This document shows positions 5,952 through 60,411 of a stretch of 64,000 nucleotides of DNA, in pieces. Under the pieces are notes generated by a model. The model saw only the letters and a program-made list of their open reading frames with translations. It was not told the origin of the DNA and did no database searches. The stretch's first letter is position 1. Every line of letters begins with the position of its first letter. The stretch comes from Isoetes taiwanensis (taxonomy: Eukaryota; Streptophyta; Lycopodiopsida; Isoetales; Isoetaceae): positions 21,278,487 through 21,342,486 of the forward strand of contig JAJEKV010000008.1 in NCBI GenBank assembly GCA_021234155.1, in the 5' to 3' direction. Made by a program: the position numbers and the translations under genes.

Positions 5952-7790
5952 TCTAAGTTATGTTATACTACAATCTTTGTTAACCTAAGAGAGCGCAGGC
6001 GATCTTACTTTCTGGAAAAAGGCAAAAAAAGGCAAAAGGGCTATGTTCTAGCCTTGCCTAATCGTGAACAATACTGGAAGTTCAGCACTTCTACAGAAAC
6101 TTGAAGCGTGATTGCACTGTGTTGAGGATCAGACTAGCATAAGCGAAGCTTTCAGGTACTCCTCTATTTTTTTCAATTGTTTTTTGCGCATTCTATGCAC
6201 ACACATACATCAAATCCGTTGACAAGGTACTTTGTTTGCCTTCCTGGTATGCTTACTTTTCTGTGAGCAATAGCCATGTAGTAAAGATGTACTAGCATGT
6301 GCTCCATTTAGATGGAGAGAGGTAATACAATGAACATGATATGGATATTTGGTGTTGATATAATGCTTCACTAAGTCCTTATTCATGTCTCTAAACAATG
6401 ACTCTTGTACTGTTCCTATGTTACTATGACTCATAAGGCATGGAAAATTCTGTCATTGTCTCGGATATTCAAAAGGTACAGGGCTAGTTCATCTCAGATA
6501 TTCTTTCAAAAAGCTTGCAAAACAATAGTTATTGCCTTTATAATTTCTAGCATCATAAATAAGTGGCAGTATAGGCGAACTACGTTGTACTTGTGCCTTC
6601 CTTCCTGGCAATGTCTTATATCTTCCTGGATTATTTGCCTGCAAATTCGTCTAGTATAGGCATGCGGCGTCATTGCGATACCAGTGTATGCATAGTGAGG
6701 ATCTTAGCTCTCTTATCTGGATTATTTGTCTGGAAATGCATTCGGTGCAGACATGAGGCATCATTCAAAGTTATGGGATACAGTGTATGCACAGCTAAGA
6801 TGCAGGATAACTCTCAAGTTTAACACGGTTCTGATACTTCTACCCAATAGCTTAGCTTCGTTCTATTATGTTCATTTTACTTCCATTGAACACTCGAAGG
6901 AAATAGTCCCTACTTTATGGTGAATTCAGATAGTTGCTAGAGTTGTGGTAGTTGGAACTATATGAGTTAATTTGCTTAAATGCTCTTTGGTTAGTTTTTA
7001 CTTTCTTGGTACTGCTCTTTGAATCTAATGAGCAGTTGTGACGATCAAATTATGATTAAGAATTTAGTGAGTACACATGTCGAACAACTATAAGACAAAA
7101 ATCTAATTTCTTAAACATCTATACTTGTAGCTATAGCTGCAACTGTAACTTGTAATTGAAAATGTGGTTACATCTATAAATGACACATTGAAACCGCAGT
7201 TGTTGAAGTCAGTAACTACTAACTGAGCTATGCAAAACTATAATCGTCATTGCACCTGCAAGCTCATCTGCACATGCAACTATAGCTACTGAACACAAAT
7301 TGTACCTGTAACTAATAAAAGTAAGTGCATCTGCAACTGGATTTGTAACTATGTTTGCAACCTTGTGGCATGATTTTGTCGACCAATTTGATTCTAAAAT
7401 TTAATCTCTGATATTTGAATCCTCATTGATTGCAATGTTAGATAGCGTTGCATTTGTATGTCGGGCAAAATATTGATTCTGATATTCATTTTTGATTTGA
7501 TTTCGGCATTGATTTTGTTTCAAAGATAAATTGCTCTCGATCTTACAAGGGCTTTCCACATCTAAAATCACGCTTGTTTCAGTTTCAATGTAAAAGACTC
7601 CCTTTTTTTTAAGGCAAGAGTGAAGAAATTGTTCAATGAAGTGAGGTTAATTTAGTCAAAAGAAGATGGTCATGTTTCACTATATAATACCTTCTTGTTC
7701 TTTTGCCTGCTAAGCCCACCAATGAAATTGATCTCCGTCAAAGGTTGATATTGGGACCCGTCATCCACCCATCGAAAGAAAAAGTAAAGG
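5952..7790. other. Intergenic DNA without genes
   Basis: Upstream side of the F-box gene, so its promoter should lie in the first part, but no convincing TATA or initiator was picked out. Around 7120-7360 there is a degenerate run of short units resembling TGCAACTGTAACT. No conserved protein is visible in either strand. Confidence 0.5.
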
Positions 7791-11315: not shown

Positions 11316-12699
11316 GCCTTTTAATTCTATGATCTTGTATTTTCCTGTCTTATAATTCTACATGCTTAGTTGACATATTTATTACATGTGCATTATTGGA
11401 TAGGGCCCTAGGTATATCCTCTCCTCCCCTTGTTCTTTGATCTTAGCATAGGTTCGATACTTGCGGAACGTAGTAGATTTAATTTAGGTTCTATTATGTC
11501 CAGGGTCTCTAGTTGATTAATTTCTTCAATAATCAACAACATTTTGAAAACCATGTACTTATATTTCACCATGTATTCTTCGTTCTGCATAAATCCATCT
11601 TTTCACAATATTTCAAATCCATGTACTATATTTTAACAATGTACTAGTTATAGGTCTAAAGAATCGAAATCGAATTTAGTTTAATAAATCATGCATGTAT
11701 TGCTCTAGTATTTGAATACATGATATTGTTTGGTTGCATATGCTTCTAGTTCATTCGCTAAAACATTTAGTTGCCTCTATGGCATGTCCACTTTCAATTT
11801 ACAGAAGCAACCGTGGTTGTCATTGTTGGATTTTGTTCATAAAAAAGTTTTAAAAATACTGGAACCCATCCATTGATACTTGTGTAAAGAAAAACAGATC
11901 TCTATGCAGACTTTGTTCTGCTTATAAAACAATTGTACATCATGCCGTTTTAATTTACACCCTCTTCATATACTGAGATATGTTCTACTCTATATTTATT
12001 ATATCATCAGTGTCGGGCTATTCTTTGCACATGCACATTTACTCATATCTCTGCATTTTTATATTCTCTCATATAAAGTGCAAAACAAAATGCAAATAAA
12101 AAAATACACGATTTTGTAGTTATTCCTTAATTACATAAGATGATCACTTCAAAACGATTTTCTAACGTTATTTAGCCACTTAATATCACTAAATATACTG
12201 GCAAATATTTTTCCAATTTAAACGAGCGATATCAATTCAAATGCTAGGTACCATTTGTTGAAACTAACTGGAGGCCATAGCTGGACACGTAAAATCCTGC
12301 AGAGATTAGTTATGTCATGTAAACAAAATAGAATCGCATCTACTAAACAAAAATGGGCAAGATGTGTCTATATAACCATTTGTATGACTATTCTGGTTGG
12401 AGGAACTGAAACATTAGCAGATTTTCAGCAGGCAGGCTCTAAAGTCTAAAAGTTTTCCCAACACCGCAGGCTGGATTTGCAAAGCGTTATGTAGCCGCAG
12501 CAGAATCTCTATTGGATTAGATGAAGCGAAAGAACCCCGATTGCAGCAGGGAGATGAATAAAGCGGTATAGAGATGAATAAAGCCGTGAAGAATAAAACC
12601 GCTAGATCGGTTTTCCCCTTTAAGTGTGCCCCGAGTAGCAACATTTGTGCATTTGTTCAGCAGTTTTGAAATGGCTTTAGGGATGGTTAGCGTCCTCCA
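11316..12699. other. AT-rich intergenic DNA upstream of the PPR gene
   Basis: No gene or RNA recognised. Near 12545-12600 short related units (GATGAATAAAGC) repeat. The segment immediately before 12700 should hold the PPR gene promoter but no clear element was seen. Confidence 0.45.
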
Positions 12700-14538
12700 T
12701 TGGGTCATCACAATGGTCATGTCGTGCCATTACAGTGGAGATGGTGGCTGAAATCATGTAAGCTGATGCCTTCATCCCCCAGGATTCCTTTTGGAAAGTA
12801 CAAAGGCCAGTTGCTGAGTTCTATTCCTCATGCATATCTTGCATGGATTCAGATCCATCTTCCATCATTCTGGATGGAATATGCCAAAGAAGAAGATAGT
12901 GATCAGTATGGGAAACCCAGGAATGTTACCAGATTGGATTTATTAATACGGAGCCATGGCAATGCCCAAGCTTTATCAGGAGGTAAGTGGGTTCATGCTC
13001 GGATTCTTAAGTTTGGGCATGGGCAGAATGGATTTTTAAGTAATCTTGTTATAGAAATGTATGGTAAATGTGGGGCGTTTGAGAATGCCTGGTAGGTATT
13101 TGACAGAATGGATATGCCTAATGTATACTCTTGGAATATCATTATGGCTTCCCTTGTGAGTTCAAACAAGGTGGAAGATGCACAAAAAATTTTCGATGAA
13201 ATGCCAAACCGGGATGTGGTGTCATGGAATGAGATGATCACAACTTATGCTCATGTTGGAAGAATGGAAGAGGCAAAAGAAATGTTTAAGAGAATGCCTA
13301 TGCAAGATGTAATCTCGTGGAATGCTCTGATTGCAGCATATGGCATACATGGGAGTTTGCCAGATGCTCTGGTTTTATTTAATAGAATGCCCCTAAAGAA
13401 TATTGTGTCTTGGAACAGTATAATTACAGCTTATGCACAGCAAGGATGTATAGAAGCAGCACTAGACTTTTATAGACAGTTGTATGTGGATGTTATGAAT
13501 CCAAATAAGGTTACATTTATCTGCATACTAGATGTTTGCAGCAATCAGGCAGCATTGACCATTGGCAAATGGCTGCATGCCAAGGTTATCTGTTGTGGAT
13601 TCGAATTAGATGCCACCTTAGGGAGTGCTCTGATTGATATGTATGGAAAGTGTGTTAGCCTCAAGGATGCATGCACTACATTTGGCATTCTGTCTCATAG
13701 AAATATTGTCTCATGGACCATAATGCTGTCAGCATATGCACAACAAGGGAATGGAAGGGAGACTTTTACACTTTTCCAACAAATGTTGCTAGAAGGTGTA
13801 AAACCAGATGAAGTCACTTTTCCATCCATTTTAGCTGCCTGCGCTTGTGAAGCTACCCTAGCTGAAGGCAAATGGATGCATATTTGCATCATAGGTAGCG
13901 GGTTTGAGCCTGATGTTGTTGTTGGAAGTTCCCTTATAGATATGTATGGCAAGTGTGGAAGTCTGGAAGATGCACAATATGTCTTTGATAACATGCCTGA
14001 GCGTAATCTTGTTTCTTGGACTGCTATTCTTGCAGCATATGCTCAGCACGGACATGGGAGAGAGGCATATCAAATATCAAAATATCTTCACGCTGAAGGT
14101 CACCTGCCAGATCAAGTTCTGTTCATCATTCTGCTTTCAGGATGTAGCCGTGCCGGTTTTATTGATGAAGGCATTCATTGCTTCACTAATATACGCGATC
14201 ATTTTATCACGGTAACTGCTAACCATTATACTTGTATAATTGATCTCCTTGGCCGAGTTGGATGGCTGGTGGAGGCAGAGGATCTGCTGAATGCCATGAC
14301 ATTGGAAAGTACGGCCACATTATGGACAAGTCTACTTGGAGCATGCAAAATTTATGGTGATGTAAAGAGAGGGATACAAACTTCACAATGTGTTTTTGCC
14401 TTGGACCCAAATGATGATGCACCTTATTTATTGCTATCAAACATCTATGCTGCAGCGGGCATGTGGGCAGAAACAGCACGGATAAGAAAAGTCACTTATA
14501 ATAATGGTTTGCATAACTGGATTCATAATATGGACTGA
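12700..14538 (+). pseudogene. PLS-class PPR protein with one in-frame stop
   Basis: One continuous frame encodes an organelle RNA-binding pentatricopeptide-repeat protein, interrupted only by TAG at 13093-13095. Upstream residues end MYGKCGAFENAW, then the stop, then VFDRMDMPNVYSWN; the family expects Gln there, so CAG to TAG explains the break. Repeats follow in PLS order (NVYSWNIIMASL, DVVSWNEMITTYAHVGRMEE, NIVSWTIMLSAYAQQGNGRE, NLVSWTAILAAYAQHGHGRE) and end in an E-type region (YTCIIDLLGRVG, WTSLLGACKIYGDVKRG, YLLLSNIYAAAGMWAETARI). The typical E+/DYW tail is replaced by NNGLHNWIHNMD, so no deaminase domain is present. Translation from the Met at 13108 would still give 476 residues. The first 60 residues carry a different motif, described separately. 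Intronless, as is usual for this class. Confidence 0.9.
12766..12890 (+). other. DUF3820-like (FGKYKG) segment in frame with the PPR gene
   Basis: The N-terminal part of the PPR frame reads PRIPFGKYKGQLLSSIP followed by HAYLAWIQIHLPSFWMEYA. The pattern PFGKYKG-x-x-L-x-x-(I/V)-P-x-x-YLxW matches the short domain known as DUF3820 or exonuclease-X C-terminal-like, found in bacterial and plant proteins. PPR proteins do not normally start this way. Either the PPR gene acquired this exon-like fragment or the Met at 12766 lies in an older, unrelated gene remnant that happens to be in frame. Recognition is from memory of the motif. Confidence 0.5.
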
Positions 14539-16984: not shown

Positions 16985-19900
16985 TTCTTGTTTGTAGTGG
17001 ACTGTCAAACATACCACTAGCAAATAGACTATTATATTTCCATGCTATCCAATTGTATCACACCGACCACTAAAGAGTACATGACAATAGTTTTCTTGTC
17101 TGATCCTGTTGTTGAATATCCAAAGATCCTTCAGGCTACCACTCAAGTAGAGACCCATATGAATGTGAGACATGGGGTGCTGATAGATGGGATGCCTAAT
17201 AAAAAAAAGTTATATAAAAATGGCATTCCAATGATCACTTTTGTAATCATGAATAAAGTGGCGGATGCACTCTATGAAGCACACAAGTGTGGTTTCCAAA
17301 AGGTTCCTGAACCCATATACAGATTTACAGAAAAGGAAAGCTTGGATAACTACCACATCAAGGATGAACTTACAGCCAATATGCATGAGGAGGGTTGTGA
17401 AAAGGAATTAAAATATAAGCAGATTGGCCCAAAGGGTGGTGCAGTCAATAAGTACAATTTAGCTCGAACTTGGTCTTTTTTGTCATGGATACATTGGTAC
17501 CCAAAGGAGGCTTAATCTATAATTACTTCATCCATGGGGGGATAGGATGTGAAGCTTTAAAGAATGGAAAGAAGATTCAAAGGTGGGTGGCCACTGAGCA
17601 ACAAAACGAATTCTTAGTGTATTATCTGCATATAAAGAAGCATGATCCAACATACATTGTTCGCAAAGAACACCAGGTGAGAGCATAACAGAAGGAAAAC
17701 AATGCAAAGAAGGAGTCAGAAAAGGAGGAGGAAGACACAAAAGATGAGGCTTCGGACGAGATTCTCTGATGAGACAAATTCTGACTAAGAGAAAAGTGGC
17801 AATGGCCCGATCAAGCGAAAACTCCACCAGGAATGGATCCCAAAACTCAGGAGAAGTTGAAGAAGTTCGTGGCAAAACAAAAGGCAAATCTTGGACAAGA
17901 AATGAAAAGGAACCTGCATTCAGAATTCTTCTATAGTTCCTGAACAATCTGACGTTTATCCTTCACCTATCAAACATGAAGAAGAAGATAGAACCTTCAG
18001 AAGGAAGAAAAGGCTCCAGCACAAGAAGCAAAAGAGTAAGTTGTCTCGCGCACAACGTGAGTTTAGTATCATTTAGATTTCAAATTGGAATTAACTCGAA
18101 CTCATAGGATAATGCAGTTTAAACAGAAAATTAATCATCTTCTATTTAAATGGAGTTTTTCTATAAAGCTTCACCAAAGCATAGCATCGTGCTCCACTGA
18201 GAAACAAATTGAAATGCTAGAGCCAATACAATATTACCATATAGTCCAAAGAAAATAAGGCTTGCTCAGAGGTCCAGGTTTCATTGACTATGCAATCAAC
18301 CTTTTGATTCTGAAGTTCTATGCAACGACAAATCCTAATAAGTAACTAGGCTTCAATTTCTGAGAAAGGTAATAAAAAAAGAATATAATCAAATGTTCAA
18401 ACTGCACCCAATTTAGGCCTTAAGCCACCTGTTGCTTGTATAGAGACGTAACTCTAGTACGTATAATTGAGGCCAATTGTGCGTACCGGAGTTATGCCTT
18501 ACATATGCAATGGGTGGATTAAGTTAGAATAAGATTATGGCTTGAAATTAGAGCATGTTCTCACACTTGAATATCTAGCACACTACACATGTTACTTGAC
18601 CATTGTCCAGTCACCATTCAGACATCACGCAAGATATAGCAGAAAACAAAATGTAGAGAACCACTAAGCTGCAGAAGGCTGGGCTAGAGGTCGAGATGCA
18701 TTGTACATCATGCCATAGAGGGATTGAATAAACAGGTCCCAACCATGAAAATCAATACAATTTTACAAGGAAACATAATATACTATTTTGTACACTATCA
18801 TACACCCTTATGAATATGATATTGACTTTCACAGTCAAGACATGTGATCCAAGTTTGCGATGTAGTGTTTAAGTAAGGTCATTGATGGGTTAGAGCGAAT
18901 ATTCATAAAGCAATCAATTATTAATTTGTTTATTGAATGATTGAGGTAGAGAAATATAAGTTGCTTTAGATAATGATTTAGTCTATTTCTGATCTTCCTA
19001 TTGGAAAGATCAAGAATGCCACCTACAACGAGCCAAGCAAGCTCACAGCATGAGACAATTCAAATCAATCAAATAGGAAAATTAGACATAGAGGAAGCAG
19101 TAAATCAAGCGAGACATTTCATGAAACACTCAATTGTCAATCTGTTTGTTGTAGACAATAAGAGGTTGCTTTAGAAAATAGCTCTGTTTTTGTCTTCCTA
19201 TTTGAAAGGTCTAGAATGCCACCTACAACGGGACAAGCAAGCTCACAGTAGGAGGTGTTTTAGACGAATCAAACAAGAAAGTCAGAAGTAGAAAGAAGCC
19301 TAAAGCAATTGGGACATTTAAAAATTACACGTCTAAATATTGAGCCTCGAGAGTGCATATATAGTTATAACATATAATATTTGCTGATAAGGTTCAGGAT
19401 TTGGAGTCAGACAGGATATGATCAACTGAAAATGTTTCAGTTCCCATTTTCTTCAACTTCTATCAAATCCTTCAGCTGCAAGTCTTTTGTTTGGGAGCTA
19501 CCTAGGATATTTAACCATTTGTCTAAGCGTCAGACATGGGTATCATGCCTGAGTAGAATTTCCTCAAATAAAACACCTCGAGCATCCTCTTTCTATGCCT
19601 TGAGTTTCTGGACTATCGACTTTAATATCGGCTCCCCATGCCATGTCCTTGTGGTTTCGAACATAACTAGGCTGGGTTTGAAATCCCCTAAAAGGTACCC
19701 AGGATCGTCAATTTCTTATCTCAATAAAGGTACATATAGAACTTTCTCCCCATCTCTTTATCTTATCTAAAAATGCTTCCTTTGACTTTTATTTTGGACT
19801 TTTGGATCTTTTAATGAACATAACTAGAAAGTACCCGGTTCAAGTACTAGTGTATGTACTAGAAATCTAAAGTGGCTCAAGTTTTTACCCGTGAGAAATT

Positions 19901-21825: not shown

Positions 21826-21907
21826 ATATTGTTTGTAATGGACTGTCAAACATACCACTAGGAAATAGACTATTACATATCCATACTATCCAATTACTAA
21901 AGAGTAC

Positions 21908-22460
21908 ATGACAATAGTTTTTTGTCTGATCCTGCTGTTGAATATTCTAAGATTCTTTAGGCTACCACTCGAGGCCCATATGAATGTGAGACATAGTGTG
22001 CTGATAGATGGGATGCCTGATAAAAACAATTACCTCAATATTGGCATTCCAATTATCACTTTTATAATCATGAATAAAGCAGCGGGTGCACTCTATGAAG
22101 CACACGAGTGTGGTTTAAAGCTTCCTGAACCCATATACAGATTTACAGAAAAGGAAAGCTTGGATAAGTACCACATCACCAATGAACTTACAGCCAACAT
22201 GCCTAAGGAGGGTTGTGAAAAGGAATTAAAATATAAGCATATTGGCCCAAAGGGTGGTGTGGTTAATAAGTACAATTTAGCTCGAACTTGGTCTTTTATG
22301 TCATGGATACATTGGTACCCGAAGGAGGCTTAATCTATAATTACTTCATCCATGGGTTGGGGGATGGGGCGTGAAGCTTTAAAGGATGGAAAAAAGATTT
22401 AAAGCTGGGTGGCCACAAAGCAACAAAAAGAATTTTTAGTGTATTATCCGCACATAGAGA
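21908..22460 (+). pseudogene. Unrecognised repeat-borne protein, copy B
   Basis: Paralogue of 17042-17688: AHMNVRHSVLIDGMPDKN, GIPIITFIIMNKAAGALYEA and KLPEPIYRFTEKESLDKYH align throughout. The frame ends at the same place, after YNLARTWSFMSWIHWYPKEA, where the downstream half continues in another frame. No known domain was identified. Confidence 0.5.
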
Positions 22461-24105: not shown

Positions 24106-24109
24106 ATCG
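24106..24109. other. Target-site duplication (left), ATCG
   Basis: ATCG immediately precedes the left terminal inverted repeat and is repeated immediately after the right one (34377-34380). The unfilled site in copy A reads CCTACAACGAGCC, so one ATCG/AACG tetranucleotide existed before insertion. Confidence 0.8.
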
Positions 24110-24130
24110 GGGTAAAAGCACGTTAGAGTG
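24110..24130 (+). repeat. Left terminal inverted repeat
   Basis: Begins GGGTAAAAGCACGTTAG and continues AGTG. It pairs with the reverse complement of 34356-34376, with one difference (A for G at position 18). Confidence 0.9.
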
Positions 24131-24413
24131 TCATACATTAGACAATTCATGTAAACTTTTGAACGGGTTGCTGAATTTTAAATGTACTTATTTCATGTAT
24201 AAATTTTGTCTTATATATTTAAAAAGGGGCAAAATTCCCGTTTGTTTGTAATTATGACGAGTAGAGGCCGGCGGTTGATGCGAAACTCCTGGAGGAAATT
24301 CCTCCCTCCAATTTCCTCCAGGAAAATTCCCTCCAGAAAAATTTCCTTCCAAAAAAATTCCCAAATCGAACCAAGAAAGTAGAACACAATTTGAATTTTT
24401 TTCCAGGACCAGC

Positions 24414-24534
24414 AAAACATGCAGTCTGGTGATTTCGAAACTGAATGTGGCGATCAGGAAAACATGCAATCTGGTGATTTTGAAACTGAATGTGGCGATC
24501 AGGAAAACATGCAATCTGGTGATTTTGAAACCCG
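24414..24534 (+). repeat. 45-bp coding-type tandem repeat, nearly three units
   Basis: A 45-bp unit encoding NMQSGDFETECGDQE is repeated nearly three times at the start of the transposase-like gene. The third unit has an extra C (GAAACCC instead of GAAACT), which shifts the frame relative to the first two. The perfect 15-codon periodicity suggests it was translated, as an acidic N-terminal extension. Confidence 0.7.
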
Positions 24535-24537
24535 AAT

Positions 24538-25252
24538 GTGGCAAACATCGATGGCATCCGTGAATTCAAAATTGTGAAGAGTAAACAACAGGTGGCATGT
24601 AGTAATTTCGAAAGTGGGAGAGATGAGAAAGGGAAAAAGAAGATGGTAGAGCATGATAGCGAAATTGAAAAGGGTAGTACATCCTCAAGGTATGTTACCA
24701 AAAAAAATAAGAACCAAGCAGTGCAAAATGTCATATCAAGTTATGAGAAAAGAAGCTGGATCTCTGACTTCTAATCAAAGGTACTTATTTGCTTCTAGAT
24801 TCTTGCAAGATCACAGGCTATTGGAGCTTTTTGAACCTGTGATTGGGTTGCCTTCACAAGCAGTGGTCAAGCATGCAATTTTAGAAAACCTTAAAGATGG
24901 ATTGGAAGAGGTAAAATGCTCTAATACTGGTGATAAATTGGCTGCCAAGCACTCCGTTTTATCAATGGTTGTGGGGAAAAATAGTGATTTGAAGCAAATG
25001 AAAATTGCTTGCAAGATGCTCAAATGCCATCCCCGAAATCTTTCATATGCTGCTAGCAGAAGAAAGAGAATGGCAATTGCTGGTTCAAACATTTGGGCAT
25101 TAGCAGGCAAGAAGGCTAGATCTGATCGTTTGGATGAAGAAACCAAGCTAAAAGTCATCCAGTTCTGGCTTAACAACACCAAGGTTTTACCAAAGTACAG
25201 GGATGTGAGGAAAAAAAGAAGCGAGGCAATCCAGTATCTTGACATTCCTCAG
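24538..25252 (+). CDS. Transposase-like gene, exon 1
   Basis: The core frame runs from about 24653 to 25252. A basic or charged N-terminal stretch in the overlapping frame (24538-24774, KSKQQVACSNFESGRDEKGK) probably belongs to the same gene, implying a one-base shift near 24760. Conserved-looking blocks are NQRYLFASRFLQDHRLLELF, NIWALAGKKARSDRLDEETK and LKVIQFWLNNTKVLPKYRDV. The pattern K-V-x-x-F-(W/Y)-x-x-N-(T/S)-x-x-LP...RDV is one I associate with a transposase family widespread in animals and seed-free plants. The exon ends in phase 0 at DIPQ, before GTATTA at 25253. The joined protein would be nuclear and DNA-binding if functional. Confidence 0.6.
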
Positions 25253-25330
25253 GTATTAAAGCTTTTGTCAAAGAAACTATTACATTTCAGTTTCTTTTTA
25301 GTTTTCATGTACATTTTCATGCACATATGT

Positions 25331-25647
25331 GAACTCCTCTACCAATCTTAATTTACTTGCTTTGATGTAGCCTTTTCAGTCTGTTTTGCTTACTGTATTA
25401 TACATGTAAATGAGGTTTATGGGGTCATCTACTTGCTCTTGGAAGCATTTCATGTATATTATGTGATATATATGTACATAGTGTAAGGATGTAAGATTAA
25501 ATGTGCCAGTAGAAGTGAACTCCTTTGCCAATCTTAGTTTACTTGCTTTGATGTAGCCTTTTCGGTCTGTTTTGCTTAATGTATTATACATGTAAATGAG
25601 GTTTATGGGATCATCTACTTGCTCTTGGAAGTATTTCATGTATATTA
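25331..25647 (+). repeat. Intronic 186-bp tandem repeat, second unit split by Helitron
   Basis: Unit 1 begins GAACTCCTCTACCAATCTTA at 25331; unit 2 begins at 25517. Unit 2 continues only to CATGTATATTA at 25647 and resumes with TGTGATATATATG at 28475, on the far side of the Helitron. Unit 1 reads CATGTATATTATGTGATATA without interruption (25451-25470). Confidence 0.9.
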
Positions 25648-28474
25648 TCCTATATTATAAAATTTTAGTGTTTGTCTGTTTTGTTTGTCGCCCTAAATCG
25701 GACGGCCCAGATTTGATCTAATCATGCTGCGGTTTTTTTGTGAAGGCATCCTAGGGTTACGACGCATCTCTATACCACAGGTCCAACCATGGAGGCCATG
25801 GCAAGCCTATTCCGGCATTCCATTGTTATTTCGTAGGGATTTCTCTTAGCTTATTTTAGGGTACGTTTGCAGCTATGGCAGCTCCGGCAAGACTGAGCAG
25901 GGGCGAAAATGTTATCAGGATTTTGAGATCTAACAGGATTTACCTTGCTCTGAGCTTAACCTATTCTGATTTTGGTATTCCTTTTCCTGCTCTGGTTACT
26001 ATAAAGGAAGATGATTGATCCGACACCCTATTTTTAATGGCATATATCGAGAAAAGCTGTTGGAGGTTCTTCCAGCAATCATATTTCAGGGATGTCCATT
26101 TTTACAGTTTAAAGATATAAAAGCTATAGAGATCTGAGAGAGTTTTCATGCCTTGGATGTTTTAGGGCGTCTAGATTAAAAAATAAAAATGCTCTAGAAA
26201 TGCTCTAGAGCAATGACCAGGCTATGATGAAAGCATACTTGCAAAACATGGCTTCAGGAATATGGCAATGAGATGGGTGAATCATATGTTGCAAAATGTG
26301 CAATTTTAGGGACTTTTTAAAGGTAAGGTGTCGAACTATTTGGATTTGCTAATTGAACGAAAGGAAGCATGATATAGTCTTTTGGAATGGTTTCTGAATT
26401 TGAGATTGAAGTTCTGGTTCTTTGTAGCCTGCCAATTAAATCCACATATGCTGCATTGCACTTCGTGACATATGAGCAATATTTGAGGTGGCTAATAGAA
26501 AAACCATCCAGAAACTGGCACTCTGCCTGTTGTTGACCTGCTTGCTTGCTTGCTGCCTCCAGAGGAACAACTGTTCTCTGCATATCAGGTTGTATATCTT
26601 TGCTTTTGTTTTTCTTTTTATCCGATTTATCAGAGCTTGCAAAGTAAAGTGTCTAGAGTCGTCATTCATAGTCCTACTTTGAATTGAAAATAGGTCAGAA
26701 GGAGAAAGGATTTTGTTCTGTAGTACAGTAGGTGCAGTTTTGGAAAGTGTAGTAGGCTTCGCTTCTTCATTATCTAGATATGTAGGAGCTCTGCAATTTT
26801 CCCAGCGAGATTGAAAGTTCTTCCCAGGAGGATGATTGTAGCAGGGAAATGAATTTTGGTTTTTGTCTGCATTCTGATTAAACATGCAAATCCTATGGCT
26901 AGAGCTGGTCTAGCACAAATTCGGGTGGCACTGTGATTTCAACGTCCTGTAAATTTCAATTTTCTGGCAGTCCATTGCTTGCAGGACATATTTATTTATC
27001 CAGCTTTACTTTCTGGGGATTGGACTTGCAAAAGACTTTTTATTCAAGGTGGTTCCTTGATTGTTACAAGGTGTGCCATTTCAATGTTTTGCCATGTTTA
27101 TTCTACTTTTTCTATAAGCACACAAGAGCTCAGTAAATTAAGCACTCCAAAATACTTCGATAACACATGTAAGTTGTTGTCTTTGGTTCCATTCATAACA
27201 GCATAAAAATGATGGTTTAGGCTTTGCTACTTTTCCAGAGTCAATTGTTGCCCTTAGAGAAGGGATCTAAGCCTTGGAAAAGAGCTGCAGAATAAGTAGC
27301 TCAAATAAGTGCTGAATTTAATTCGCTTTTGTAGAGATATCTTAGTACAGTTAAACAGTGGCAACAATGAACCAAACATTTTATTCAAGTTAGTTCTGAT
27401 AAGCTTCAATTATTTTGTTTCGTATTTGGTAACAGTATTTCACGCATGGTTTAGTTTTGATTATATGCCCATTATTATATTATTTCATTGATGTCTAAAT
27501 CAGGATCATCTTATCATTGATATTTACTTAACCTTGGAGACCTATCATAAATATTCTTGGGATTTCTGTGCTATTGCACTTAACAAATATATGGTTTCCT
27601 GTCCAGTTATTGCCTTAATATAATATGTTCACTTGATGTTTGTGCTTATTCAAACCTAGCATGTTTCGAACCATGATATTTAACAATGCTTATCGATGTG
27701 CAAATTTGAAAGAATCAGACAAATATCAACTACACAAATATCAACTACAGTGCAAATTGTATTCAGAAATCTATAATACAATGCAAATCCATAGGCAAAA
27801 GAATACCAAATAATCACTACGACGTAAATCTATAAAGGAAAGATATAATACAATGCAAATCCGTAAGCAAAAGAATACCAAATAATCACGACGACGTAAA
27901 TCTATAAAGGAAAGAATGCAAAACAAAACTATACTTCTTTCATGAAGTAAAACAAACGGATTTTTCTACGTGGACATATATACACATATATTTGCCTGTT
28001 AATCCAAATGAACACTAAACTCAATAATCAATTTGCAAGTTTACCACACATGGCTCTCGAATAAACATACAACCAATTTAACCTCTACTACATGGCTCTC
28101 GAATAAACATACAACCAATTTAACCTCTACTACTTCTCCACGAGAGCAACACTAAACTCAACAATTAATTTGCAAGTTTAGATCACATGGCTCTCTAATA
28201 AACATACAACCAATTTAACCTCTGCCACTTTTCAATGATGCATTGAGTAAATAAATGTAGAAGAAAAAGGAAGAAATAGCTATGAGTGATCTACATTATC
28301 TATTCTAATATAAAGGCAAAAGAATTGTAGGTACGTCAACCATGTTTAAATTGCATCAATGTCTCCATGATATAATATAAAGCATTATACAAAAGTTGAA
28401 GCTCAAATTGCACAGCATTAATGCTGCATGAGATAACTGCCTTATAGCCCAGCAACGCTGGGCACCATTACTAG
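25648..28474 (+). mobile_element. Non-autonomous Helitron, 2,827 bp
   Basis: The 5' end is TCCTATATTATAAAATTTTA and the 3' end has a 17-nt hairpin, GCCCAGCAACGCTGGGC (28447-28463), seven bases and then CTAG. The element sits between A (25647) and T (28475), the expected Helitron target, and the matching unfilled site is present in the neighbouring tandem-repeat unit at 25461/25462. No Rep/helicase gene is visible. Inside are a 72-bp-spaced repeat near 27770-27920, repeats with ACATGGCTCTCGAATAAACA at 28050-28215, and a minus-strand frame of 149 residues at 26436-26885. A Helitron-like TCTATTCTAATATAAA at 28298 may be a nested or alternative 5' end. Confidence 0.92.
26436..26885 (-). CDS. Hypothetical frame inside the Helitron
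   Basis: A 149-residue minus-strand frame with segments such as QSRTMNDDSRHFTLQALINR and IKRKTKAKIYNLICREQLFL. It is not a Helitron replicase. Helitrons often carry host gene pieces, so a captured fragment is possible, but no family was recognised and chance openness cannot be excluded. Confidence 0.25.
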   Translation of the reverse strand: MFNQNADKNQNSFPCYNHPPGKNFQSRWENCRAPTYLDNEEAKPTTLSKTAPTVLQNKILSPSDLFSIQSRTMNDDSRHFTLQALINRIKRKTKAKIYNLICREQLFLWRQQASKQVNNRQSASFWMVFLLATSNIAHMSRSAMQHMWI

Positions 28475-28706
28475 TGTGATATATATGTACATAGTGTAAG
28501 GATGTAGGATTAAATGTGCTATAAATTGATACTATACATAATCTACTGTACATATGTACTGAATATGTATAGATTCAATCAAATCTTTTTACATGTACAA
28601 CTGATATGTACTGGTATACATAGTATTTCTTACTTATGTACTGGATATGTAAGGTATTCAATTCACAGTCTTCTCCAACTTACCTATTTTCTTTTGTAAT
28701 GTGCAG

Positions 28707-29273
28707 GCTAAGCTGTATGAGCACTTTGTGGAGGAGAATCCAGATGCAAATGTTGGTATTAGAATGTTCGAATACCTGAAACCAAGTTGCATAAGGAAAT
28801 TGAAGGAGAGAAACACTTGTTGTTGTGTCAAGCATGAACAAGCAGAGAATTTCAGAAAAGCTTTCAACTCTATGAGGCTGAAGTTTCACATAAATTGCAG
28901 TTGCAATTGTGATGTATGTGCTATTGGTACACATGATGGGGTTTGTCAGGCACAAAAGCTTACATTTTGTAATGTTAGCACCCTTTGGAGAGAAATGGTT
29001 TGCCAAAAAGAGGAAAGGGAAGAGTGGCACAATCTGAAGTGCATAAGGGGGGATTGTGAAAAATGTGGTAAGCAAAAGATTCCCTTATGTCCAAAAGAGA
29101 CTGATCAGAATAATGAAGATGATGTTAAATGGCAGGCTTACTGTTATATAGACGAGAAGTCAAGGAAGGGCACTTCTAGAGCCAAATCCCAATGGTTGGA
29201 ACACCAGTACAACAATGATTTCGACAATGGACGACAAAAGAAGACTCCATCAGGTACTTGGATTGGCACTTGA
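28707..29273 (+). CDS. Transposase-like gene, exon 2 (catalytic part not seen)
   Basis: Starts in phase 0 after the acceptor: AKLYEHFVEENPDANVGIRM, FEYLKPSCIRKLKERNTCCC and VKHEQAENFRKAF, followed by a Cys-rich module (CSCNCDVC) and CIRGDCEKCGKQKIPLC. The order F-x-x-ENPD-x-x-VG-x-x-x-F-x-x-LKP...CCC-x-x-H is the signature by which I link it to a transposase family. The Cys clusters probably form zinc-binding structures. In related proteins a catalytic segment with a HDYSE-like acidic motif follows; here the frame stops at TWIGT after QKKTPSG, possibly past a missed donor (TCAGGTACTT at about 29249). The minus-strand gene ends only 273 bp downstream, leaving no room for it, so the protein looks truncated. 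Confidence 0.6.
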   Translation, partial: AKLYEHFVEENPDANVGIRMFEYLKPSCIRKLKERNTCCCVKHEQAENFRKAFNSMRLKFHINCSCNCDVCAIGTHDGVCQAQKLTFCNVSTLWREMVCQKEEREEWHNLKCIRGDCEKCGKQKIPLCPKETDQNNEDDVKWQAYCYIDEKSRKGTSRAKSQWLEHQYNNDFDNGRQKKTPSGTWIGT

Positions 29274-29545
29274 GTGCCATTATAGTCACTGGGTGCTGAT
29301 TGACAATAGTAATCCAAAATGCCTTGGAGATCAAATATAATAAGCCCTGTAAGTAATCCAGGGCAGTTAGGTTAGCCATACATCTAACCGGACCAAGCCT
29401 AAGGATAAGACAGAAAGTCTAAACTAATTCTAGTTTGTAACCCTTGATAGAAATTAAAGCGTTGCAAACGATTTCTTATTCAAATAAATTTCAAAGTACA
29501 ATAGTCAATTAGCTTTAAATTCCATAAGTTGGAATGAGTTTAACT

Positions 29546-30500
29546 ACCACTCTTCTGCCCAGTGACAACTTGTTTTGTCTCATCTCTTCTTCTCAAACCA
29601 TATTCAATCATGGCTTTTATTAATACATTTCTTCTGCCAAGTGCAAATTCCTTGTTGAACCAGGTTGATGAAAACTGCAACAAACACAAGAATTAAGATC
29701 CGCTACAATAAAACATCCCAAAGGATTTGTGTGAAATATAAGAACAACTCACCATGCTTTTAGAATTCACTTGGGCATCCACAAAAGCTTGCATAAAGGC
29801 CATCACATAAAGACCGCAGCTTACACTATCTATTTGTTGTGGAACCTGCGAATAGTTTCCTTCTTCAATGCATTCTTCACATATAATTCAACTCTCGTGA
29901 GCTAGAGTTGGTTAGATATGTGATGACATCCTATGAAGCCTGCACACAAAATGAGAACATGCAACTAAGATTTAAGCAAGCACGAAGTACACATATCTTT
30001 GAAAGAAAATGCTCACATATTTAGGAGTTTGTCATCCCATTGTTATACCATCCATGGAGTTCAACACAATAATTGCGGAGAAGCCATTGAGGTGGTACCG
30101 CAAATTTTTGCGACTCTAAAACAAAAATCACCAAAACATGATGGGCAGGGGTCCTCAACTTGAACTGGAACCATAATATACTTGGCATTTACTAACAACA
30201 ATGCCTTGTAGCCCTTTCTCAACCGCACACTCTGCCTTTGACCGTCCCCATACTATTAGCATCCGTATTAATCTTTTAAATGCTGCCCGATAAGTCAAAA
30301 AGTTTTCTCAAGGGAAGAAAAAGAAGACATCTCGCCATTTGGATGTCAATGTGCTGCTCACATACCTTCCGAATATGTCTAAATGTCTGTTAGACATGTT
30401 CCTATCTTAAACAATGTCTCCACACAATATTTCGTGACCTTAATCAGAGGTTCAGCTTGGAACGGATAGAATGGAACCATTGTCTGAAGGTTATCCATGT
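29546..30500 (-). pseudogene. Ulp1-like (C48) cysteine peptidase domain, 3' exons of minus-strand gene
   Basis: Separate exon-like blocks on the minus strand give the end of a SUMO-protease-like domain. About 30100-30200: KGYKALLLVNAKYIMVPVQV, then after a one-base shift AHHVLVIFVLES, carrying the expected catalytic His region. About 29753-29870: CEECIEEGNYSQVPQQ, then IDSVSCGLYVMAFMQAF, where Gln and the Cys-Gly of the active site are intact. The last exon, after TTGCAG, reads STWFNKEFALGRRNVLIKAM and ends with TAA at 29546-29548. Further upstream, about 30370-30500, DMDNLQTMVPFYPFQAEPL belongs to the same gene. At least two frameshifts are needed. In active relatives this domain cleaves ubiquitin-like modifiers in the nucleus. 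Confidence 0.75.
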
Positions 30501-30569
30501 CACTGCAAACCAAGCATCAATGGTAACTAGCATAGAACACATATTTACTAATCCAATTACACTTACAGT

Positions 30570-31095
30570 TGCTCAACTGATGTCTGGCTTCTAGTTCTCT
30601 TAGCTGGCCGCGACACCTTTGTATCTTTTCTTTTTCTTGACTCTTTCTCGTTCACACCACTATCTGTATCTGTTCTATCCTCAGATTCCTCCTTCTCTTG
30701 CTTCACCACAACCACCTGCTTCATATATGTAGCCACATTCTCCACTAAAATTTCTTCAGTATTAGTTGTATATGTTCCTGTCTTACATGATTCTTCAATC
30801 TTCTCGATTGTAGTTTCAATTAAGGCCATAGATCCACTAGTTTCCTCTGTTTCTGCGAATAATAAAATGTATGAACATGCAATAAATAAATGCAATAAGT
30901 AGTTTTTGACTTACCATTTGAAAACAACATTTCAAGTTCGGTCTGATGATGTGGCATTGGCTTTAGAATTGGTACCTTCTGCACCTTGTCTACAACTGTT
31001 TTCTTTGGAGTGTCGAAGACCTCTACAATAATATCTTTTTTTTTTTTAGAGTGTCGAGACGGCTTCATTGTTCTCCTCAGCCATTTGGTTCCAGT
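30570..31095 (-). pseudogene. Middle exons of the RING/Ulp1 gene, with basic nuclear-localisation-like stretch
   Basis: Two exons with good splice sites. Exon about 31095-30916 reads KKKKDIIVEVFDTPKKTVVD and KVPILKPMPHHQTELEMLF and ends before GTAAGT. Exon about 30855-30570 follows TATTATTCGCAG, reads ETEETSGSMALIETTIEKIE and ends with RKRKDTKVSRPAKRTRSQTS before GTAAGTG. The last basic run resembles a bipartite nuclear localisation signal. These low-complexity segments link the RING-bearing N-terminal half to the Ulp1-like C-terminal domain; the linkage is inferred from strand, splice sites and spacing. Confidence 0.55.
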
Positions 31096-31317
31096 ACTAC
31101 AAGATAACTCATTGTCAACAGCAGCATAAACATCAAGAAAATATAGAAATTAAACTAATATGGACACACACCTGTGTTGCCACATTCAGCCCTTTGCTTC
31201 AGGAGCTCAATTTGTTATGCATATGAAGTTACAATTGTAGCTTTGCTTGTGACAACTGTATCTGTTATTAAAATAATGAGCTCAATTTGCTTCCTTTTAA
31301 AATCCAGTAAATTCATT

Positions 31318-31375
31318 AAATCCAGTAAAATCCAGTAAATCCAGTAAAATCCAGTAAAATCCAGTAAGGACGCTT
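31318..31375 (+). repeat. Short tandem repeat of AAATCCAGTA units
   Basis: Five or six units of AATCCAGTA(A) in a row, directly left of the TRIM-like element. The repeat sits in an intron of the minus-strand gene. Confidence 0.85.
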
Positions 31376-31401
31376 GAGTTCGAATTCGTGTGCTAATAAA
31401 T

Positions 31402-31819
31402 TGGTAGACCGCTCGAGTATTCGAACCTTGAATGTGCCTGTGGGGCGTTCCCGAGACACCGGCATAAATGGGTAGAAGCGACTACTCATAAACGTCTAGA
31501 CGGTTTTGCCCGTTGGTTAAGGGCATGTCGGTTAGGAACGCTATGCTTGGTATCGAGCAGGTCTCGAGTTCGAGTCTCCATGGGTGCCTATATGCATGGG
31601 TAATTTGCAAAGACTTGGTAATCATTCTGACATGGTATAGCTTGGATGCTCGAGGACGAGCATAGTTCTAGTGGGAGATACTGTAACGGGCCCATGGTAG
31701 ACCGCTCGAGTATTCGAACCTTGAATGTGCCTGTGGGGCATTCCCGAGACACCGGCATAAATGCGTAGAAGCGACTACTCATAAACGTCTAGACGGTCAT
31801 GTCGGTTAGGAACGTCACA
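31402..31819 (+). mobile_element. TRIM-like miniature LTR retroelement
   Basis: Two direct repeats (31402 to about 31546, and 31682-31819) share GGTAGACCGCTCGAGTATTC and AAACGTCTAGACGGT. The right copy begins TGTAACGGGCC and ends AACGTCACA, giving canonical TG...CA termini; the left copy lacks the first 18 or so bases. After the left repeat comes TTGGTATCGAGCAGG (31547), a near match to the initiator-Met tRNA primer site TGGTATCAGAGC. Before the right repeat is the purine run AGTGGGAGA (31671-31679). The internal region is about 135 bp and cannot code for proteins. All the minimal parts of a TRIM are therefore present. It occupies an intron of the RING/Ulp1 gene. Confidence 0.8.
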
Positions 31820-31832
31820 GTACTAACTACTT

Positions 31833-32093
31833 ACTTGATGTTCCTTTTCCTCCTCTCTCATGCTCTGCTACAAATGTGTTCAGAGGTGACCTAGATGTGG
31901 ACGGGGTTGACTTATCATGCTTCCCTCCATAATAATCATCTACACAACTTGAAAAATCAAGTGTCTTTGCAGGAGGATCTACTCTGTTCTTGCCGGCATC
32001 TGCATACGAGGTGAAATTGAAATACATATGAAGAGACCATAACCACATATCACATACCTTTCTCTGGCTTCTTTATACTACCCATGTCACCTG
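31833..32093 (-). pseudogene. Short internal exons of the RING/Ulp1 gene
   Basis: Exon 32093-32061 (GDMGSIKKPEK) follows TTCTTGCAG and precedes GTATGTG. Exon about 32002-31834 reads DAGKNRVDPPAKTLDFSSC, VDDYYGGKHDKSTPSTSRSP and LNTFVAEHERGGKG, and ends before GTAAGTAG. The TRIM-like element begins 14 bp beyond this donor. Assignment to the same gene rests on splice-site quality and strand. Confidence 0.5.
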
Positions 32094-32751
32094 CAAGAAT
32101 GAAAGCATTACCAATAGTAACTAGATGACTGAAAGAATATTAGTGCCCACTATAAACCAAAACCAGAAAAGCAATGTACAATCCAATTCCAAATGTACTC
32201 CATGTATCTGTATTGCAGAACTATGTTTTATGTACCCACATCCAAATGTAGAAAGCTTCCTAGAAAAAAGAATTCATAAATGCATTCCATGTAGCTGTAT
32301 TAGATATATTAGATATATGTATTTGGAGCCAAGTGTAGAAAAGCTTACTGGAAAATTGTAATTGCATTAAAATGTATCATAGAGTACAGCAGGTATCAAA
32401 ATGTCCCCCCAGTAGAAGACCACATCTTATACAGATGTACACACAGGCAGTTACTTACTTATCCTATTTTCTTAGTACATAAAAGTAACTCCTCAATAAT
32501 ATCTGGCAACACTGTACATCATGCACATTAATAATATGCATGTACTAACATGATGTTTACACCAACCTAGGAAAGCAAAACGATCCAACCCTACAAATCT
32601 TCACTTCAACCTACATTTTAAAACCCAAATGTAATTAATATACTACAGAACAATTAATGCACAACCAATACACAACTTCTAACTAATATCCATCTACCAA
32701 TCTTACACCTGAACTAATCAAGAAAGACATGAAAGAAATCGATTATGCATG

Positions 32752-33969
32752 CTTACCTTTTCCAATCAGCCCCAATGCACGAGGTAGATTCACATCCCAT
32801 GTGCAGCCTGGTACCACGCAGTTGTTCCTTGTGCTAGCAAGATAGGAGATACATAATAGGCAGTAAGGATGTCTGCAAGATGCCAATACCACTGAGGAGG
32901 AACTAAAACACTGCTCGCAATTTGTGCAGGACTGAAAATCAGCATTTGGCTGCTCTGCAACTGAAACCAAAGAAAGAGGAGGAGGCTGCAAGCTAAGGAC
33001 CGAGGAGTGATCTAAGAACTCTCTCAACTCCAAAATCTTTGTGTCCCCCTCCTCAATTGCTTTCTTTTTTGAAGACCTTAAATTAAGTTCAGAATCTAGC
33101 TGCCTCAACTCAGATGCTTTTGCTTCCACTTCCTTGCTAGGCTCAGCTAGATCCTGCCCCCTCTTGCTCTTCTGCGCAATTGCATCCTCCACCTTCCATT
33201 TTATGTGCTCAAACTTCATAGCACTACCGTCACTTTCATCCATCTGCTGTTGAAATTCCTGCAACTCTGATTCAAGTAATTAGTCTCGGCCTCATGGACT
33301 AGCTTAAAATATACTGCCCTTTCCCCTTCCCTATGCTTCAAAGTCTCATATAGCTGCAGTCTTGTCTCCTGTAAATTCTGCATCTCCTTACATATGCTTT
33401 CCTTCAAAGAGGATCTGCTCTCAAGAAATACATTCAAACTGTCCAGATCTTCTTTTTTTGTAGAAATTATCATAGGACTTGTGGCCCTTGGCATTGCTCG
33501 ACTTAACTGTTACAACTTCAGTTAAGACCTCGGATTCTTTGACCTTACTTTTAGCTGTGGCTGTTTTTTTCACATCATCCCAATCAACTGATTCACCTTT
33601 TAAGTGTAAGGCAAATGCTCGAGCAAAATACAATGGAACATAGTGATTTTGTACATCTTTCCTACCGAATGCAAACTCGTACCACTTGAAAAATTCTGCC
33701 TGGTCTTCCAACTTCACCAGCTCATCCTTGTACCCGTACCTGTTAGGTTCCTTAGAGCCCCAAACTTCTGTCACTAAAGAGTTGTATTCTGCAAATTTTT
33801 CCTTGAATTTCATATTTGCCAGATCCCTTGCAGAAAATACTGTGTCCTCATTTCGGTTCTCCTTGCTACAGCCAGGACTTCCAGACTTCAAATGTGTCCC
33901 TGCTTTGGAAGCCCTGGGAGATTTTCGGACTGATGCAGGGGCAGCACTCTTCTTTGGTGTCTTTGCCAT
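32752..33969 (-). pseudogene. RING-finger and coiled-coil N-terminal part of the transposon accessory gene
   Basis: Starts MAKTPKKSAAPASVRKSPRA, a basic Ser/Pro-rich N-terminus. A globular segment follows (KFAEYNSLVTEVWGSKEPN, EFFKWYEFAFGRKDVQNHYV). Then comes a long charged coiled coil (KESICKEMQNLQETRLQLYE; EVEAKASELRQLDSELNLRS), and finally a RING-like finger: CEQC, then SCRHPYCLLC, then NCVVPGC, that is C-x2-C...C-x-H-x2-C-x2-C...C-x4-C, close to C3HC4. The exon ends LIGK before GTAAGC. Frames must be changed twice, once within an A7 run near 33453 and once near 33270, so this copy is damaged. RING fingers usually recruit E2 ubiquitin- or SUMO-conjugating enzymes. Confidence 0.7.
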
Positions 33970-34355
33970 TGTCTATACCTGCAATGCAACAACAAATATC
34001 TTTTAATTGTTCTAAAGGTGCAACAATCTGAGCTTGCACATGTAAACAAAAATCTAAAGTAAAAAATTAAAAGCAGAAAGAAGAAAACTAGGGAAGAAGA
34101 CGATTGTACCTTTGATTTGTTGAGAATGACCAAGCGACTTCGGAAGAGCGTGCTTTAGTCGCTTGCAAGAGATCGAGGTGCTGGATCGCAGGGTAAAAGC
34201 AAAGGGATCAAAGGACCAAAGAAACAAGAACGGGGAAGAAAGAATTGGAGGGAATTTTCCACTGCCTATTTTCGGTCGAAAAAAAAACCGAAATTCACGG
34301 TAATTATTATACATTTCTAAAAATGTATATGTATTAAAATGGCCCAATATTTTAT

Positions 34356-34376
34356 CACCCTAACGTGCTTTTACCC
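34356..34376 (-). repeat. Right terminal inverted repeat
   Basis: Ends CTAACGTGCTTTTACCC, the reverse complement of the left terminus apart from one base. It is followed by the ATCG duplication and then by the continuation of repeat copy B (AGCCAAGTAAGCTCATAGC). Confidence 0.9.
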
Positions 34377-34380
34377 ATCG

Positions 34381-60200: not shown

Positions 60201-60399
60201 CAAAACCTCTGCCTGCTCCCGGTTCTTTATGATTCCACACTGATCCAAGTAAGGTAAAACCATTAATACTTGGAAGACTTTGGGATTGATGTTCCCAAGT
60301 CTCTGAAAAAAGCAATACATCTGCCTCTTTCCAAACATTAACAGTGGCATCAATTTTAGCTTGATGGAGTCCGTGTACATTCCAAGCTAAGATCTTCAA
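57254..60399 (-). pseudogene. LINE ORF2: endonuclease and reverse transcriptase, broken
   Basis: In order: APE-type endonuclease from MKILAWNVHGL (Asn), through LLFSETWEH (Glu), VGDFNAR (Asp, Asn), STVDYLLAD and ESDHAGL (Asp-His), all catalytic positions present. The linker has WWDDECR. The reverse transcriptase has KSGSKQDVHNYRTI, QAGFRKYHSTLDHALSL, FVDFSKASDTVPRDG (Ser replaces the usual Phe after Ala), GVRKGCPLSPMLF and LLLYADDVVLIAD with the YADD box. A CCHC motif, CSFC...H...C, lies near the C-terminus. Breaks: TAG at 59995-59997 in place of CAG, and frame changes near 59655, 59210, 58565 and 57790. In active relatives the product nicks and reverse-transcribes at chromosomal targets. Confidence 0.93.
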
Positions 60400-60411
60400 G
60401 GTCCCGAGTCC

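Follow-up and report, generated by a model that had tools for sequence, protein, structure and literature searches.

We describe here an accessory gene of a DNA transposon from Isoetes taiwanensis (Isoetales), which lies in a stretch of 64,000 nucleotides (contig JAJEKV010000008.1 of assembly GCA_021234155.1, forward-strand positions 21,278,487 to 21,342,486). This whole stretch is called the window, and positions follow its own numbering unless a copy is named. At 24110-34376, the window holds a damaged member of a DNA transposon family of ~10 kb. Eight minus-strand exons within it would encode a protein that carries a RING-like finger and a Ulp1-type protease domain, and the transposase gene runs towards them on the opposite strand. 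An earlier note, made from the letters of this DNA, had proposed such an exon order, and the start codon (ATG at 33969), the finger (32928-32803), the active-site Cys codon (29818-29816) and the stop codon (TAA, 29542-29540) lie as it had placed them. The parts of the accessory gene, in the direction of transcription, are as follows; the coiled coil was judged by eye.

32757-33969, minus strand: exon 1, with a basic N-terminus, a conserved N-domain of unknown fold, the coiled coil and the RING-like finger
32803-32928, minus strand: RING-like C3HC4 finger, C-x2-C-x13-C-x-H-x2-C-x2-C-x10-C-x4-C in the window
32058-32090, minus strand: exon 2, a 33-nt mini-exon (GDMGSIKKPEK)
31835-31999, minus strand: exon 3, linker
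30915-31096, minus strand: exon 4, linker
30567-30852, minus strand: exon 5, acidic linker and a nuclear-localisation-like basic run (ESRKRKDTKVSRPAKRTRSQ)
30017-30502, minus strand: exon 6, carrying the His (HHVLVIFVL) and Asn (IIVLNSM) segments of Ulp1, with a frameshift in the window copy
29753-29939, minus strand: exon 7, Ulp1 active-site segment SCGLYV, including the Cys codon
29540-29674, minus strand: exon 8, end of the Ulp1 domain and stop codon
29182-29346, minus strand: remnant of a NIF (FCP/SCP-like phosphatase) exon, starting at the acceptor TTACAG, with the frame IIFDLQGILDYY

The window copy is a pseudogene: its exon 1 is frameshifted into three overlapping open reading frames, and, compared with the copies L035, L036 and L037, it lacks 2.3-2.8 kb of internal sequence, a deletion whose two sides, NIF remnant and transposase gene, now meet at 29180/29182. 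Copies of the family were grouped into the subfamilies A (L014, L035, L036, L037), B (L010, L011, L012, L038, L039) and C (L040), and a prefix such as in A37, B10 or C40 gives subfamily and copy. The less damaged copies that the earlier note had advised seeking proved to be readable in part, none of them being intact, and our reading of the gene combines exon 1 of L035 with the L037 sequence that starts in exon 1 with the RING part and runs through exon 8. Exon 1 of L035 is an open frame of 371 amino acids with the RING at its end, and in both copies exon 1 is closed by a donor. In L037, exons 2-5 continue the frame of exon 1, read there from 831 up to its donor, with one in-frame stop, located in exon 5; the phase of exon 5 suits exon 6, and exons 6-8 are in frame and stop-free to the terminal TAA. 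From RING to Ulp1, the exons are thus bounded by AG/GT splice sites with compatible phases. The copies also show damage of their own, L037 carrying further stops in the N-region and L035 having exons 4 and 6 that are 7 and 5 bases shorter than those of L037. Exon 2 measures 33 nt with AG/GT ends in L037 of subfamily A as well as in L010 of subfamily B, the exon 7 acceptor has an equal position in both subfamilies, and subfamily B has one additional intron within exon 6.

The two domains are also linked across the genome, which comprises 1,658,258,908 bases in 1110 contigs. Comparing lists of the best 150 of 1152 and the best 150 of 903 candidates, with 144 of the 150 RING rows used, we found that 77/144 rows are followed by a Ulp1 match on their own strand at a distance of up to 4 kb (median 1948 bp), the chance expectation being 0.025. 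The reversed order, Ulp1 followed by RING, was seen in 0 rows within 4 kb and in 2 within 10 kb. Because splice sites and phases fit, subfamilies A and B have exon 2 and the exon 7 acceptor in common, and the domains are linked genome-wide, the prediction that RING and Ulp1 belong to one gene rather than two is supported, as the earlier note had supposed.

The assignment of the C-terminal part to the Ulp1 (C48) family, likewise claimed beforehand, passed a search with profile hidden Markov models: the spliced domain of L037 reached 41.9 bits against PF02902 (cut-off 20.7). Single exons scored 25.0 bits in L010 and 30.7 bits for exon 7 of L037, while the exon 7/8 piece of the window alone gave 14.7 bits, under the cut-off. 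All 52 genome matches listed from the 150 candidates scored among 800, some of them outside this transposon family, lay above it. The closest solved protein was SENP7, with E=0.0032 for the single L037 sequence and E=6.6e-6 for a profile built from hand-joined rows; unlike SENP7, the domain studied here has Asn in place of the catalytic Asp and is joined to a RING-like finger. The His, Gln and Cys-Gly of the active site are kept in A14, A35, A36, A37, B10, B39 and the window, where frameshifts lie nearby. Damaged sites were seen in B38, which reads PPRGLY at the Cys, in B12, frameshifted after HH, and in C40, which has a stop directly before CG; the motif pattern used did not find the His in B11 and C40.

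The finger follows the pattern C-x2-C-x13-C-x-H-x2-C-x2-C-x10-C-x3/4-C over the copies, and its C3HC4 ligands are kept across subfamilies A, B and C at an identity of 29-30% between A and C. Across 11 aligned copies that span the three subfamilies and were picked as largely in frame (several of 20 further copies are frameshifted inside the finger), 16 columns are invariant, six of the eight ligand columns among them; L048 and L013 have lost the third ligand, and the eighth is lost in L048 and lies beyond the end of the short L013 row. Searched against PDB sequences, the finger profile retrieved the RING of RAD18 (E=3.4e-4) and TRAF2 (E=0.02), all others having E>=0.13, and of its 45 matches at E<=10, 39 bear the name of a RING or U-box-type protein. 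Pfam RING models matched 10/11 aligned rows (zf-RING_UBOX, E<=1), with a best E of 0.001 for any RING model. In the AlphaFold model, the core of the finger has a predicted local distance difference test (pLDDT) score of 74-83 and the mean is 66.9. The finger thus resembles the RINGs of RAD18, TRAF2 and the RNF4 type in its eight-ligand C3HC4 pattern and predicted fold, and differs from them in that the last ligand pair is 3-4 residues apart instead of 2 and that no hydrophobic residue precedes the second ligand. We take it as a real RING-like domain with putative activity. The RING-like finger claimed in the earlier note therefore stands as far as profile, fold and ligands are concerned, and falls short in its Pfam bit scores.

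Substitution patterns point to purifying selection on the ancestors of the present copies. Between subfamilies A and B, the ratio of nonsynonymous to synonymous substitution rates (dN/dS), from simple Nei-Gojobori counts that make the ratios rough, was 0.22 for the RING, 0.15-0.16 for Ulp1 exon 7, 0.30 for NIF, 0.19 for the transposase and about 0.08 for exon 1, where dS is saturated. Within subfamily B, Ulp1 and NIF gave 0.23-0.32 at dS values of 0.29-0.44. As these parts appear to have been kept by selection, the protein is probably useful to the transposon.

The NIF exon (L010: 5752-6462; L037: 4586-5407), which the earlier note had not mentioned, comes directly after the Ulp1 stop and has the same orientation. 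Against PF03031 (cut-off 21.8), the exon of L010 scored 24.9 bits and that of L037 14.0 bits, under the cut-off, with a query lacking the first residues. In subfamily A, its first motif was located downstream of Ulp1 in L035, L036, L037 and the window, and in subfamily B in L010, L011, L012, L038 and L039; the NIF exon was not found in L040, the only copy of subfamily C in which it was sought. Of 48 matches to the subfamily B exon (E<=1e-60), 27 are stop-free. FCP/SCP phosphatases have the nucleophile motif DxDx(T/V), from which both subfamilies deviate: A reads DLQG, keeping the first Asp, and B reads EIQG, having lost it. The NIF profile retrieved UBLCP1 from the PDB at E=0.72 only, below an unrelated APOBEC3G row at 0.68. 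A NIF acceptor, TTACAG or TTATAG, follows the Ulp1 stop by 155-212 nt in seven of eight measured copies and is lost in L011; L038 has an extra base after it. No start codon belonging to the exon itself was seen in subfamilies A and B. Directly ahead of the Ulp1 stop, all nine printed copies have a donor-like G|GTAGT whose phase suits the NIF exon, a weak donor by the usual consensus. One gene may thus give rise to a tripartite protein of RING-like finger, Ulp1-type protease and NIF (CTD-phosphatase-like) domain, a tentative reading that we consider somewhat likelier to be wrong than right. If it were true, splicing at G|GTAGT would append NIF to the RING-Ulp1 protein, giving RING-Ulp1-NIF, and one protein could read or edit SUMO and ubiquitin tags and also target, at the element, phosphorylated proteins of transcription.

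The transposon around the accessory gene is delimited on both sides, and its remaining features are listed here.

24106-24109: left target site duplication, ATCG
24110-24130, plus strand: left terminal inverted repeat GGGTAAAAGCACGTTAGAGTG, 21 nt, 95% complementary to the right end
24650-25351, plus strand: open frame for the 5' part of the transposase gene, resembling the transposase N-region of L036, L037 and L040
25507-28474: stretch of ~2.8-3.0 kb that L035, L036 and L037 mostly lack, its left edge blurred by a ~134-bp repeat; probably a nested insertion in the transposase gene
28653-29180, plus strand: middle part of the transposase, rich in Cys and His; the window copy has lost by deletion the DDE-like core found behind it in other copies
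31321-31821: stretch of 501 bp inside intron 3, absent from L014, L035, L036 and L037; probably an insertion into this intron of the accessory gene
34356-34376, minus strand: right terminal inverted repeat, 21 nt
34377-34380: right target site duplication, ATCG

The 21-nt terminal inverted repeats of the family begin GGGTAAAAGCACGTTAG, and the first 17 nt of the repeat have 98 forward and 100 reverse exact matches in the genome, compared to 0 for the reversed control. In seven other copies (L002-L008), similarity to the window stops at 34375-34377, the right end of the element. A 4-bp target duplication flanks the window copy and eight of the ten other copies with both ends read, one of these reading 5, and is absent in the remaining two; the duplicated sequences are mixed among copies. 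Terminal repeats, 4-bp target duplications and a convergent transposase identify the element as a transposon, which bears out the claim that the gene is a transposon accessory gene. Rfam had zero matches across the window. The subfamily C copy L040 (C1033:1029000-1038999) represents a much diverged third subfamily, with RING ligands, Ulp1 pieces and a transposase.

The transposase is convergent with the accessory gene in copies of all three subfamilies. Its DDE-like motifs comprise VVDF.ENY, present in L035, L036, L038 and L040, and SDGCAAQ and HGKG.HDGE, present in L010, L037, L038 and L040. The motifs SDGCAAQ and HGKGEHDGE have the look of known ones, though no search put a superfamily name on them. 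Pfam returned nothing convincing for the transposase and assigned no family, and its profile matched one ribosomal protein only in the PDB (E=0.56). Foldseek rows were mostly RNase-H-like (best E 0.0032), a hint only because the model has a mean pLDDT of 47. KDZ elements make target duplications of 8 bp, MULEs of about 9 bp and CACTA elements of 3 bp, and membership in these three groups was rejected because the duplications here are 4 bp long. The 4-bp length would fit Sola2, which shares it together with short inverted repeats of 12-21 bp (PMC3627910, accessible part). The likeness concerns the ends of the elements, and the Sola2 duplications given there are AT-rich where those of our family are mixed.

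Outside the transposon, several features of the window were noted by eye. Long open frames at 12691-14538 (plus strand) are like those of a pentatricopeptide-repeat gene, a 392-amino-acid open frame at 4779-5957 (minus strand) is like an F-box-type protein, and 57254-60411 (minus strand) contains broken frames for LINE-type reverse transcriptase and endonuclease. The similar open frames at 17021-17515 and 21869-22333 (plus strand), ~4.8 kb apart, form an apparent direct duplication.

The capture of Ulp1 by transposons is already known; what appears to be new is its joining to a RING-like finger, with a phosphatase-like exon adjacent. Two published systems are closest. In the VANDAL elements of Arabidopsis, the Ulp1-bearing VANC (KIU) proteins are reported to cause hypomethylation of related elements, the role of their Ulp1 domain being unknown (PMC13317346), and VANCs counter silencing (PMC13317346, PMC5735166) and carry DUF1985 (PMC5735166), as far as the accessible parts of these papers tell. 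Like the protein described here, KIU is an accessory protein with Ulp1 that a plant DNA transposon encodes beside its transposase. VANDALs, however, are non-TIR (lacking terminal inverted repeats) MULEs, whereas our element makes 4-bp duplications and is not a MULE, and the accessible parts of PMC13317346 and PMC5735166 do not mention RING or NIF for VANC. By the tests made, the accessory protein appears unrelated to VANC, though we propose that it works alike. The second system is Ginger1 of Hydra, whose transposases carry Ulp1 or OTU domains, Ginger1-9_HM having a PHD finger and Ulp1, and whose 4-bp target duplications arise mostly at CCGG or CCGT (PMC2836005, accessible part). Ginger1 thus shares with our family the duplication length and a Ulp1 domain that, in one transposase, is accompanied by a zinc finger, though of a different type. 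In Ginger1, the domains are fused to a Gypsy-integrase-like transposase, and the finger is PHD, not C3HC4. The earlier note had known of no element that couples a RING-type finger with Ulp1. Literature listings aimed at the architecture, with subscription papers mostly beyond reach, indeed named no RING-Ulp1 transposon protein; coupling of Ulp1 to a finger as such, in the PHD form, had already been published for Ginger1.

Taken together, we propose that the family is a cut-and-paste-type DNA transposon whose accessory gene, transcribed towards the transposase gene, encodes one probably nuclear RING-Ulp1 protein that helps the element to be expressed or moved, and we put the probability of this whole reading at roughly 55%. 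Architecture, linkage, reading frame and conservation are read from the sequence; oligomerisation, docking, SUMO removal and benefit for the element are what we infer. Coiled coil and RING would make the protein oligomeric and dock it on a partner. The Ulp1 domain would then strip SUMO, or a different tag of the ubiquitin type, either from the transposase or from those host proteins that act at the element in silencing or repair, as a result of which the element might be expressed or moved more often. The NIF exon may be spliced on in some transcripts. The most likely function would therefore be to edit or read SUMO-type tags in the nucleus in aid of element expression or movement. Attachment of modifiers by the RING is possible, without support from the RING sequence, and a role as E3 ligase would be less likely than one as docking module.

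Several observations weigh against this proposal. The gene structure is predicted from genomic sequence, and among the copies read none is open over its whole length from start to stop. Of the 144 RING rows, 67 have no listed Ulp1 within 4 kb downstream and four have Ulp1 on the opposite strand within 4 kb; because the lists hold the best 150 scored candidates, an unlinked row does not mean that Ulp1 is absent. Every printed Pfam RING bit score, printed for the first row only in the 11-row test, is under the curated cut-off, the best Foldseek match of the finger has E 0.039 with none at E<=0.001 (the rows listed being mostly RING-type), and its VIA Z is <=6.3, under 8, a range that the tool calls common. 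RINGs usually carry a hydrophobic E2-contact residue directly before the second ligand, where the aligned copies have N, Y, H or S; because of this absence, we class the finger as RING-like and not as an E3. The catalytic Asp typical of the C48 triad is Asn in 9/9 readable copies (window, A14, A35, A36, A37, B10, B38, B39 and C40) of 11 examined, B11 and B12 being unreadable, and for this reason protease activity is unproven and the domain is classed as C48-like. Pfam scans gave no match to the DUF1985 of VANC proteins, and several dS values are saturated or infinite. That the protein both attaches and removes modifiers, as the earlier note had suggested, is speculation, given a RING without E2-contact residue and a Ulp1 with Asn for Asp.

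Of the alternatives, the one that survives best is a co-factor of transposition whose target is the transposase or DNA repair and not silencing. Such a role, in transposition or repair, has been proposed for the Ulp1 and OTU domains of Ginger1, including the one with a PHD finger (PMC2836005, accessible part). Here, however, the Ulp1 domain is encoded in a gene separate from the transposase, and we regard the co-factor role as rather unlikely, while our results do not separate it from anti-silencing. Unlikely, and more doubtful still, is a non-catalytic adaptor in which the finger is structural or protein-binding and the Ulp1 fold, with its His-Asn-Cys, binds SUMO without cleaving it efficiently. 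The Asp-to-Asn change in all nine readable copies, subfamily C included, would suit an adaptor, as would the second RING ligand lacking a preceding hydrophobic residue and the sub-threshold RING scores. His, Gln and Cys-Gly are nevertheless kept outside the damaged copies, and papain has Asn as the third residue of its triad, so that Ulp1 activity is possible despite the loss of Asp.

Two adjacent genes, with a RING gene ending in or after exons 1-3 followed by a separate Ulp1 gene, are quite improbable. The lack of a transcript, the long gap between RING and Ulp1 (the median of 1948 bp) and linker exons that mostly have no match between subfamilies would be consistent with such a pair, but the exons of L037 run in frame from RING to Ulp1 at AG/GT sites with one in-frame stop (exon 5), exon 1 of L035 and L037 ends at a donor, and the 33-nt exon 2 is common with subfamily B; we reject the two-gene structure because of the splice phases and the genome-wide linkage. 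Functionless passengers, that is captured fragments of host genes, would agree with the many broken copies and with the common capture of genes by plant transposons (PMC13317346, accessible part), but N-region, RING and Ulp1 stand in equal order in three subfamilies, and the low dN/dS of about 0.1-0.3 between subfamilies, where dS is finite, makes this very improbable.

With a single RING-Ulp1 protein as the preferred product of the accessory gene, the family adds to a wider pattern. Ulp1 has been taken up by several transposon groups, among them MULE and Ginger1 (PMC13317346, PMC2836005, accessible parts), which suggests that the SUMO pathway is important to transposons. The family described here offers a compact system for asking what the Ulp1 domains of transposons do, and whether the editing of SUMO or ubiquitin marks serves such elements as an escape from silencing or as a means of controlling their transposase.

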